Source: a candidate division TA06 bacterium SM23_40
Lineage (GTDB): Bacteria; LJUI01; SM1-40
Assembly: GCA_001303705.1 (NCBI GenBank)
Contig: LJUI01000065.1
Span: forward strand, 1-16,510
DNA length: 16,510 nt
Reading direction: 5' to 3'
Shown in pieces: positions 1,073-4,744 of this stretch (position 1 is its first letter; each line of letters starts with the position of its first letter). A program made the position numbers and the translations under genes. The notes under the pieces are model-generated. The model did not search any database. It had not been told where the DNA came from and worked only from the letters and a program-made list of their open reading frames with translations.

Positions 1073-2371
1073 ATGAACGAGACGGGCATTGACAGACTGC
1101 TCATCATAACCTATGTGGATCATGGGAAAGATGCCAACCAGCGGACACATCATCTGGTCGACTATTTCAAACATCGCTGTCGGGAAGTGGTCGTTGTCTA
1201 TCGCGGAGGGCCGGTACCTCGTTCAAAGCGGTCGGAGCTTCTCGGGCTCGCCAGGTGCAGGTTATTGTGGTCGGCGAGCGAGAACGTGCGAATCCTGAGA
1301 GTCGAGCCACCGCTCAACTACACATATGGCCTGGGGATGAAGCTCCTCGGGTATGAAGGAGTCGACACGAGTGTTCAGCGGGGAATTCGGGGTCTGGTGG
1401 GGAAGATACTGCGCAGAGCGGGAGGGCTGAGACACTGGGTCGCTCCCCTCGCCGTCTGGCTCGGCACGGCGCTGGAGGTCCCGGGGCGTTTCGATGTCTG
1501 CATATCCGAAGGACCGTGGGAGACCTGTCTCGGTTACGTACTTCGACGCCTGGGACGCGTGCGTCTGCTCATCTATGAAGATGTAGATTTTCTTGGTGGG
1601 CTGGGCAGCACACTGTATGACCGGGCGACTCACGCCCTGGAGGTCTTCTGCGGGAAGCAGGCTGACATGACGATCGCCGCCGGGAACCTTCTTGCGCAGC
1701 TTCGTGAGAGACAGACCGGGAGGCGGCCTATCGTCGTCCATAATGGTGTCGACTACAGGGCGTTCGTCCGCGCTCAGAAGAGGGAGCCGCACCCGCCCAC
1801 GCTCATTTACACGGGGATGATCAGCGATTGGTCCGCGCTCGACGTAGCGATTGCGGCCCTGCCTCGAATCCGCCAGAGTGTGAGCGGAATCCGCCTGTTC
1901 ATAGTGGGCACTGGCATCTCACGTCACGAAGAGTGGCTGAGGCAACTGGCGAGGGACATGGGTGTGGAGCACGAGGTTTCTTTCTTTGGACGGAAGCCGT
2001 ATCACGAGCTACCTCTCTATCTGCGCCAGGCTGATATCGGGCTCGCCAACTTCCGACTCACGCCGTTCAGGAAGTATGCGTTTCCGCTCAAGGTGATCGA
2101 GTACATGGCGGCGGGGCTGCCGGTCATAGGCACGAAAGAATCGGAGACCGCAGACATCATTACGAGGTACAGGTGTGGCACAGCGATCGACTGTTCGCCG
2201 GAGGCGCTAGCCGAAAGTGTTGTCGATCTACTGAGCGATAGCGCGAAGTACAGGCGCATGGCCGCGAGCGCCAGCGAAGCGAGCGCTGCATTTGACTGGG
2301 AACGGGTGCTCGCGCAGGAGTACTGGCATATCACTAGAGCCTTGACCCATCGAGGACTGCGGAGGATATGA
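1073..2371 (+). CDS. Family 4 glycosyltransferase, copy A
   Basis: This GT-B fold GT4-type enzyme of 432 aa probably adds a sugar to the EPS repeat unit in the cytoplasm. The frame is open from an ATG at 1019. The ATG at 1073 is preferred because GAGG (1060-1063) precedes it and because its paralog at 3419 starts in register (RLLIITYVD here, RLLIVTEMD there). Both share the unusual N-terminal block NQRTHHLV, then RFDVCI[SA]EGPWE and NGVD. The C-terminal domain starts around PTLIYTG. The donor-site motif reads RKYAFPLKVIEYMAAGLP: the second Glu of the GT4 E-x7-E pair is present and the first is replaced. The stop overlaps the next start as ATGA, so translational coupling is likely. Confidence 0.85.
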   Translation: MNETGIDRLLIITYVDHGKDANQRTHHLVDYFKHRCREVVVVYRGGPVPRSKRSELLGLARCRLLWSASENVRILRVEPPLNYTYGLGMKLLGYEGVDTSVQRGIRGLVGKILRRAGGLRHWVAPLAVWLGTALEVPGRFDVCISEGPWETCLGYVLRRLGRVRLLIYEDVDFLGGLGSTLYDRATHALEVFCGKQADMTIAAGNLLAQLRERQTGRRPIVVHNGVDYRAFVRAQKREPHPPTLIYTGMISDWSALDVAIAALPRIRQSVSGIRLFIVGTGISRHEEWLRQLARDMGVEHEVSFFGRKPYHELPLYLRQADIGLANFRLTPFRKYAFPLKVIEYMAAGLPVIGTKESETADIITRYRCGTAIDCSPEALAESVVDLLSDSAKYRRMAASASEASAAFDWERVLAQEYWHITRALTHRGLRRI

Positions 2372-3406
2372 AGATCGGTCTCGACACATCATACGTCGGC
2401 CTCTCCGGGAATCCTAGAGGCGGCGCATACCAGTACATCGTCAACTTGACGCAGGCGATCCTCTCCGTCGACCACGAGAATGAATACCGGCTTTCGTTCA
2501 ACTACGTTCGTCGGAAGCATGCCCGCACCTTGAATGAGGTCAAAAGGCTCTTCCCAGGCGGGCGGTGCATCGTCAGACGGATTCCTTTTCGCAGTTGGAT
2601 CCCCTATCCAGCAGAGTTCTACGTTGGAAGGGTTGATGTCTTTCATGGCATGTATGAGAGCCTCCCCCCCGTGCTTGAGTGCCGTACTGTGGTCACGGTC
2701 CACGATTCCGCATACAAGAGGCGACCCGACTCGCTCCGGCCTGAGTGGGTGCAGCGCCTGGGAAGACAGATCCCGGAGGCGATCGGCCGCGCGGACCTTG
2801 TGATCACCGTCTCCCGATTCACCAAGGGCGATCTAGAGGAGATGTTGGGTGTACCAGAGGAGAAGATCAGGGTGATCTACCATGGGGCGAATTCCGCATT
2901 TTTCCGCATTGCGAGTGAACCGGTCGAGGCGTCGGAGTCGGTCAGGATGGCATATGGGATCCGGCGCCCATATATCCTCTACGTCGGGGTGCTTCAACCG
3001 AGCAAGAACATCGGCGGGCTCGTGGAGGCGTTCGCCCGGCTCAAGGCGAGGATCGATATCCCACATCGTCTCGTCATCGTGGGAGCCAGGGGGTGGATGT
3101 ATGAAGACATCTTCGTGAAGATGCAGGAATCGGGGGTGGAGGATGTAGTCGATTTTCCGGGTGAAGTGCAGGACGCCGGTGGTAGCGGCCCGGGCGTGCT
3201 CGCTTCCGGAGGTGGTGGGAGATGCCGGCGTGCTGGCAGATCCCCATTCCCCGGAGGAGATCGCGAGGGCAATGGAGCGTGTCGTCACTGATGAACAACT
3301 GCGGCGTGATCTGAGGGTCAGGGGGACAAAGCGCGCCAGCACGTTCACCTGGGAGGAGGCGGCGAGGCAGACGATCGATGTGTATCGGGAGGCGTCCGCT
3401 CTGTAG
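2368..3406 (+). pseudogene. Family 4 glycosyltransferase, frameshifted by an internal deletion
   Basis: The N-terminal part reads as a normal GT4 mannosyltransferase-like enzyme: MKIGLDTSYVGL, a GGAYQY loop, TVHDSAYKRRP, VITVSRFTKGDL, VIYHGA, and the C-domain opening YILYVGVLQPSKNIGG. It is intact to VVDFPGEVQD (codons ending at 3174). From there the original frame gives low-complexity Gly/Arg/Pro sequence until a stop at 3291. The +1 frame from 3161 resumes a convincing GT4 C-terminus (MKCRTPVVAA, SLPEVVGDAGVLADPHSPEEIARAM) and ends at TAG 3404-3406. The stretch of about 30 residues normally between these parts, including the E-x7-E donor motif, is missing. The overlapping 13 nt TGAAGTGCAGGAC (3162-3174) make sense in both frames, as expected after deletion between direct repeats. 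The product should be inactive unless the lesion is an assembly error. Confidence 0.85.
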
Positions 3407-3418
3407 CGAGGAGTTACG

Positions 3419-4744
3419 ATGCGACGGCTATTGATCGTGACGGAAATGGATCTCTGGGCGTTTCCCAACCAGAGGACACATCACCTCGTTCGTCACCTCT
3501 CTCCGAAATTTGATGAGATCGTCGTGCTTTGTTGTTCGAAGGTAACCGACAGATCGTTTGTCGGGCAACTGAAGGGTCTCATGATGCGCACACAGGTGCT
3601 GCCGCTGGGCGATGCGACCCTAGTCCGGATCAATCCGTTTCTCAATCACGTCGAGAGCCTCGGGTTGACGATGCTGGGGCTGGAGAGCCCCTACAGCGAG
3701 CGGAGGAGGGGAGTACGGAGAGTGGTGAGTAGCATCTTGAGCAACATTGGCTGTGTCGCCGAGTTCGCAATACTCCCGTCTCTCCTTCTCACGTTCTTAC
3801 TCAGGGCGAGGGGGCGGTTCGATGTCTGCATCGCGGAGGGGCCGTGGGAGGCGGCGTTGGGCATGATCCTGCGACGGATGGGGTACCTCAAGTTGCTCGT
3901 CTATGATGATATCGATTTCACCCCTGGTTATCATTCCATTAGCCGGTTCAGGCGGAACTACCGCCTCTTGATGGAGCGGTGGTCGATGAAAAGTTCCGAC
4001 CTCATCACGGCAGTCGGAGACCTGTTGGCCGAACTGAGACACAAGCTGACTGGCAAGCCTGTGACGGTAGTGCCGAACGGCGTCGACCTGGAGCACTTCA
4101 GTCGCGCACAGAAGAAGGTTGCCCATCGGCCGACGCTGGTGTATACTGGAAATGTTGCCGGGTGGGCTGGGATCGACCTCGCCATAGAGGCGCTCCCCCT
4201 GATCGCCGAGCGTATATCCGACATCCGCCTTCTCGTCGTCGGCTTCAGTTCGCCTGAATACAGTGCAGTGATGGAGTCGCTGGTGGAGAAGTCCGGTGTT
4301 AGGGGTCATTTCTCCTATGTGGGGCAGAAGGAATACCGAGAACTTCCGGAGTTCCTGAGGCAGAGTGACATCGGGCTTGCGGTCTTTCGTCCTGTTGAGG
4401 TGCGGAAGTATGCGTTCTCACTCAAGGTGATTGAGTACATGGCAGCGGGGTTGCCGGTCATCGTCACCTGCGGGACGCAATCGGAACGAGTCGTCGAGCG
4501 CTATCGCTGCGGCGAGGCGATCGATTTCGATCCCCAAGCGTTCGCCGATTGTGCAATCCGGATGATACTGGATAGGGAACGCTACCACCGTTATGTAGAG
4601 AATGGCATCCGGGCAAGCAGAGAGTTTGCCTGGCCTGCTCTTGTCGAGCGGGAGTACGATCTTATTGCAGAGAGCTATGCCCAGCGCTTCTGTAGCGCTG
4701 GCAATATCCATCGAGGGGAGGTACACAAGCCATATGCGGCGTAG
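3419..4744 (+). CDS. Family 4 glycosyltransferase, copy B
   Basis: This GT4-type enzyme of 441 aa is paralogous to the one at 1073-2371. Shared blocks in the same order are NQRTHHLV, RFDVCIAEGPWE, LLVYDDIDF, VPNGVDLEHFSRAQKK, PTLVYTG, the segment RKYAFSLKVIEYMAAGLP, and ERYRCGEAIDF. As in copy A, the first Glu of the canonical E-x7-E pair is absent and the second is kept. An excellent ribosome site GAGGAG (3408-3413) precedes the ATG. It lies 12 nt after the broken GT gene and overlaps the following lipoprotein gene by 11 nt. It probably transfers a second, similar sugar in the EPS repeat unit. The C-terminal extension (about 15 residues after QRF) has no counterpart in copy A. Substrate unknown. 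Confidence 0.87.
   Translation: MRRLLIVTEMDLWAFPNQRTHHLVRHLSPKFDEIVVLCCSKVTDRSFVGQLKGLMMRTQVLPLGDATLVRINPFLNHVESLGLTMLGLESPYSERRRGVRRVVSSILSNIGCVAEFAILPSLLLTFLLRARGRFDVCIAEGPWEAALGMILRRMGYLKLLVYDDIDFTPGYHSISRFRRNYRLLMERWSMKSSDLITAVGDLLAELRHKLTGKPVTVVPNGVDLEHFSRAQKKVAHRPTLVYTGNVAGWAGIDLAIEALPLIAERISDIRLLVVGFSSPEYSAVMESLVEKSGVRGHFSYVGQKEYRELPEFLRQSDIGLAVFRPVEVRKYAFSLKVIEYMAAGLPVIVTCGTQSERVVERYRCGEAIDFDPQAFADCAIRMILDRERYHRYVENGIRASREFAWPALVEREYDLIAESYAQRFCSAGNIHRGEVHKPYAA
4681..4701 (+). promoter_or_regulatory. Perfect 7-bp hairpin just ahead of the lipoprotein start
   Basis: CCAGCGC (4681-4687) and GCGCTGG (4695-4701) are exact reverse complements around a 7-nt loop. The hairpin lies in the last codons of the preceding glycosyltransferase, 12 nt upstream of the GAGGGGAGG ribosome site (4713-4721) of the GH39-like gene. 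It could tune coupling between the two genes or protect a processed mRNA end. No T-run follows, so it is not an intrinsic terminator. Function is inference. Confidence 0.3.

Follow-up and report, generated by a model that had tools for sequence, protein, structure and literature searches.

The window analysed here is a whole contig (C6) of 16,510 bp from a draft genome of 2.88 Mb that comprises 189 contigs and is 89.8% complete. It carries a gene cluster of the polysaccharide type, with all genes on the forward strand: a GT2 gene, three GT4 genes, a gene for a GH39-type protein, Wzy-like and Wzz-like genes, and genes for an NAD-dependent sugar epimerase/dehydratase, a Poly_export (Wza-type) protein, a radical SAM/SPASM protein and UbiA, followed by a weak PMT_2 match and then by DnaJ-TPR. 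The second of the three GT4 genes (2368 to 3406) is broken, and hmmscan finds it as a GT4 glycosyltransferase spread over two reading frames. The next GT4 gene, at 3419 to 4744 on the same strand, gives an intact GT4 profile match, has its own likely ribosome-binding site, GAGGAG at 3408 to 3413, and should remain translated.

The upstream open reading frame of the broken gene runs from 2368 to 3291. Its segment from 2368 to 3174 represents the 5' part of the gene in the original frame and encodes the N-terminal Glyco_transf_4 domain (PF13439, E 7.1e-15, residues 18-175) together with positions 15-82 of Glycos_transf_1 (PF00534). Beyond residue 269 no family match was detected in this frame by hmmscan, and the reading frame runs on after the junction as an out-of-frame tail of 38 codons and a stop (3175 to 3291). 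The 3' part of the gene lies in a shifted frame (3161 to 3406, forward strand), where it matches PF00534 positions 113-171 and keeps the original stop; a GTG at 3161 is a possible start for it. Glycos_transf_1 is not complete in any one frame, and the two-frame match leaves a gap of 30 profile positions (83-112). At the junction stands the stretch TGAAGTGCAGGAC (3162 to 3174, forward strand). The frame of 2368 translates it as GEVQD and the one ending at 3406 as (V/M)KCRT, and both readings are family-like. Neither half of the gene contains an internal stop.

Codon usage points to the same break. A model trained on parts of this genome gives the 5' part 0.20 per codon and the 3' part 0.16 in its own frame, values close to those of its two GT4 neighbours (0.16 and 0.17). 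The out-of-frame tail falls to -0.12, and the Viterbi path of the model changes frame near 3203. Both flanks are still coding-like, and apart from the missing segment the gene is without visible decay, in keeping with the initial annotation, to which the rest of the gene looked under selection. This fits a recent event, one of the possibilities proposed there, but weakly so, because neither the genome collection nor the other genomes searched supplied an orthologue near enough for a dN/dS test, the best match being 40% identical and none coming from the same species. The plasmid collection yielded matches of only about 30%, and a search of solved structures with the N-terminal part gave none at E 0.001.

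The size of the missing segment was obtained from a MAFFT alignment of 28 homologues from other genomes, to which the two gene fragments were added separately. The distance from the D of GEVQD to the V or M before KCRT is 29 residues in 27 of the 28 homologues and 31 in the remaining one. In the GEVQD reading the first base of the 13-mer is the third of the G codon, and in the (M)KCRT reading it is the second of the M codon, which makes the two registers differ by one base less than 34 codons. The offset is therefore 101 nt, not a multiple of three, wherever in the 13-mer the join falls. The skipped block contains EGFGxPxxE, the E-x7-E stretch, a conserved and characteristic motif of this glycosyltransferase domain (PMC2446393). 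The alignment thus bears out the earlier proposal of a frame-breaking loss of about 100 bp that takes the E-x7-E site with it, and the two readings of the 13-mer do fit the family at places about 30 residues apart. A family in which both parts are naturally adjacent, the case that had been named as evidence against a deletion, is rejected, the block being found in all 28 aligned homologues. The two-frame Pfam match, the alignment and the codon-usage frame switch put the break far beyond chance, and we have very little doubt that the gene, as assembled, is broken and 101 nt short. Its product as read would almost certainly be inactive, since the E-x7-E site and the last segment of the domain are missing from it.

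The same alignment bears on the reading that the gene is a natural short variant, an enzyme that functions in split or frameshifted form although the block is missing. Coding-like codon use in both halves and the GTG at 3161, from which the 3' part could start, would suit such an enzyme, but the universal presence among the aligned homologues of a block that includes the motif characteristic of the family argues against it, and ribosomal frameshifting at the junction would leave the block missing all the same. We regard this explanation as very improbable.

The initial annotation attributed the loss to recombination between two copies of the 13-mer. What the sequence retains of this is the double reading: family-favoured residues occur in both frames of TGAAGTGCAGGAC (G, V and D in the upstream frame; M, C and T in the downstream frame), whereas the 13-mer itself is single, a second exact copy being absent from the window and from the genome. 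Simulations based on the family profiles and on local codon usage gave the frequency of such readings by chance. An equally good downstream reading arose in 0.06% of trials when the 13-mer was taken wholly from the upstream side, and an equally good upstream reading in about 4% when it was taken wholly from the downstream side. For most intermediate blunt joins the summed score was reached in 1.5-8% of trials, and for the extreme join in 24%, where the statistic is uninformative. A double reading that is modestly unlikely by chance in this way (1.5-8% for most joins, about 4% for a downstream-only origin) suggests, but does not prove, that the 13-mer is a former direct repeat whose second copy went with the deletion. 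Substrates for such an event would be ordinary in the sampled genome, which holds about 79 exact direct repeats of at least 13 nt spaced 40-200 nt apart per Mb.

The explanation that we favour, and consider reasonably probable, is a real deletion of 101 nt in a GT4 gene of an exopolysaccharide cluster, bounded by a short match and most likely produced by RecA-independent replication slippage. Slippage between two matching stretches of about 13 nt would have removed one of them together with the 88 nt that separated it from the other, 101 nt in all, taking out the E-x7-E motif and shifting the frame, so that translation would stop at 3291, 38 codons beyond the junction. Deletions that replication slippage causes at short homologies are described as contributing significantly to the variability of bacterial genomes (PMC2884548), and the present deletion resembles them in that a segment was lost beside a short repeat well below 30 bp; it differs in that the second repeat copy is deduced instead of observed.

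Genes for surface glycans are often switched on and off, and the broken gene had also been labelled as possibly phase-variable, meaning that the deletion would turn it off reversibly. Frequent switching among genes of this kind is what speaks for the label; against it, the 13-mer is unique in the genome, the region is present once, and slippage on a single repeat copy cannot bring the lost 88 nt back. We found no donor, alternative allele or second copy of the GT4 region in the same genome. Reversal in place is impossible from the DNA present in this genome, so the label is unwarranted and we think a switch of this kind highly improbable.

A survey of frame breaks in sampled stretches of this genome, 1.65 Mb in all (L035-L154), on contigs partly chosen for their GT4 genes, showed that about nine genes besides the one described above look truly broken, by short duplications or by apparent deletions. 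The duplications include an exact 10-nt tandem duplication (GCGGAGCCGA twice) in a gene for a C25-protease propeptide (L037 14781-14800, C3, reverse strand; profile positions 6-72 and 75-194 in two frames), exact 13-nt tandem duplications in a gene at L085 4331-4356 (C43, reverse strand) and in a YacP-like NYN gene (L095 2754-2779, C100), and a 33-nt tandem duplication that introduces an in-frame stop (L120 3197-3263, C58). Frame changes with an apparent deletion were seen in a second GT4 gene, where about 67 residues (about 200 nt) are missing relative to the closest homologue, 46% identical (L150 about 15000, C170, reverse strand), in a methyltransferase (L064 about 9160, C20, reverse strand), in a subtilase (L065 about 4880, C21, reverse strand) and in a PMT_2-type transferase (L145 about 15930, C149); a beta-helix repeat protein shows a frame change with an apparent deletion or repeat change (L111 about 13358, C117, reverse strand). 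The deletion cases often concern glycosyltransferases (C6, C170 and C149), which counts for little given that contigs were partly picked for GT4 genes.

Three further stops lie within otherwise readable frames of the surveyed stretches. An in-frame TGA in LICG-TGA-HLGECHYLEGN (L077 8774-8776, reverse strand, C35) lies in a sequence that resembles an MvhD-type hydrogenase subunit with selenocysteine and may belong to one. A TAG at L039 1636-1638 (C5) and a TGA at L122 464-466 (reverse strand, C60) each interrupt an otherwise open repeat-type frame and are possible nonsense changes.

The broken genes also raise the question of whether the deletion exists outside the assembly. If read or contig ends on the two sides of a coverage gap were merged on the strength of a spurious match of about 13 nt, 101 nt of a gene that is in fact intact would be lost from the assembly. 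The draft is fragmented and incomplete (189 contigs, 89.8%), the same assembly contains the exact 10-, 13-, 13- and 33-nt tandem duplications inside genes as well as the GT4 gene on C170 that lacks about 67 residues, and uncollapsed or spurious overlaps could yield both deletions and tandem duplications. The 1.65 Mb surveyed contain 40 exact tandem duplications of 10-39 nt, and 0.4 Mb from two genomes of other lineages, each a single contig, contain none. This comparison is indicative only, as the control lineages differ in composition and assembly type. Flagged frame jumps, however, are not clearly commoner than in the controls (18 in 1.65 Mb versus 4 in 0.4 Mb; the numbers are small and each set includes false positives), so that a general excess of broken genes in the assembly is not apparent from them. 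In addition, 24 of the tandem duplications have lengths not divisible by three; 14 of these fall outside frames scored as coding and several more at the ends of open reading frames, whereas assembly errors should fall randomly in a mostly coding genome. Taken together, the deletions and tandem duplications can be explained by misjoining or non-merging at short overlaps or equally by replication slippage; the distribution of the duplications, which is what purifying selection would leave, and the rate of flagged frame jumps both speak for slippage. We therefore treat a misassembly as a serious possibility, although a somewhat doubtful one, and retain a real slippage deletion, probably present in living cells, as the preferred reading, with further length changes at short repeats elsewhere in the same genome in its support.

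A broader possibility is that this uncultured lineage is unusually prone to gain or lose short tandem copies and repeat-bounded segments, and that its surface-glycan and secreted-protein genes switch thereby. The exact 10- and 13-nt duplications would then act as switches that can revert, and the GT4 deletion would be an irreversible outcome of that process. We judge this to be unlikely.

In domain order, in the motifs outside the lost block and in gene neighbourhood, the broken gene is like other GT4 glycosyltransferases (PF13439 and PF00534) of polysaccharide clusters; it differs from them in lacking 101 nt, E-x7-E included, and in being out of frame. The break is an ordinary frame-breaking small deletion or an assembly slip, and not a new kind of system. 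A close parallel is gtr76, a capsular glycosyltransferase of Acinetobacter baumannii in which a slippage deletion arose under phage selection (PMC9247103). Both are small deletions in a glycosyltransferase gene for a surface glycan, but the one in gtr76 is of 6 bp, in frame and experimentally shown, whereas the deletion reported here is of 101 nt and breaks the frame. Cases in which glycosyltransferases for surface glycans are lost or altered under selection by phages are documented elsewhere (PMC9247103).

For annotation, the finding means that the cluster encodes one working glycosyltransferase fewer than its gene count implies, and that the frame-broken genes of this draft need a read check before they are labelled as pseudogenes. 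If real, the deletion would be another case of a polysaccharide locus losing an enzyme through a short-repeat deletion.
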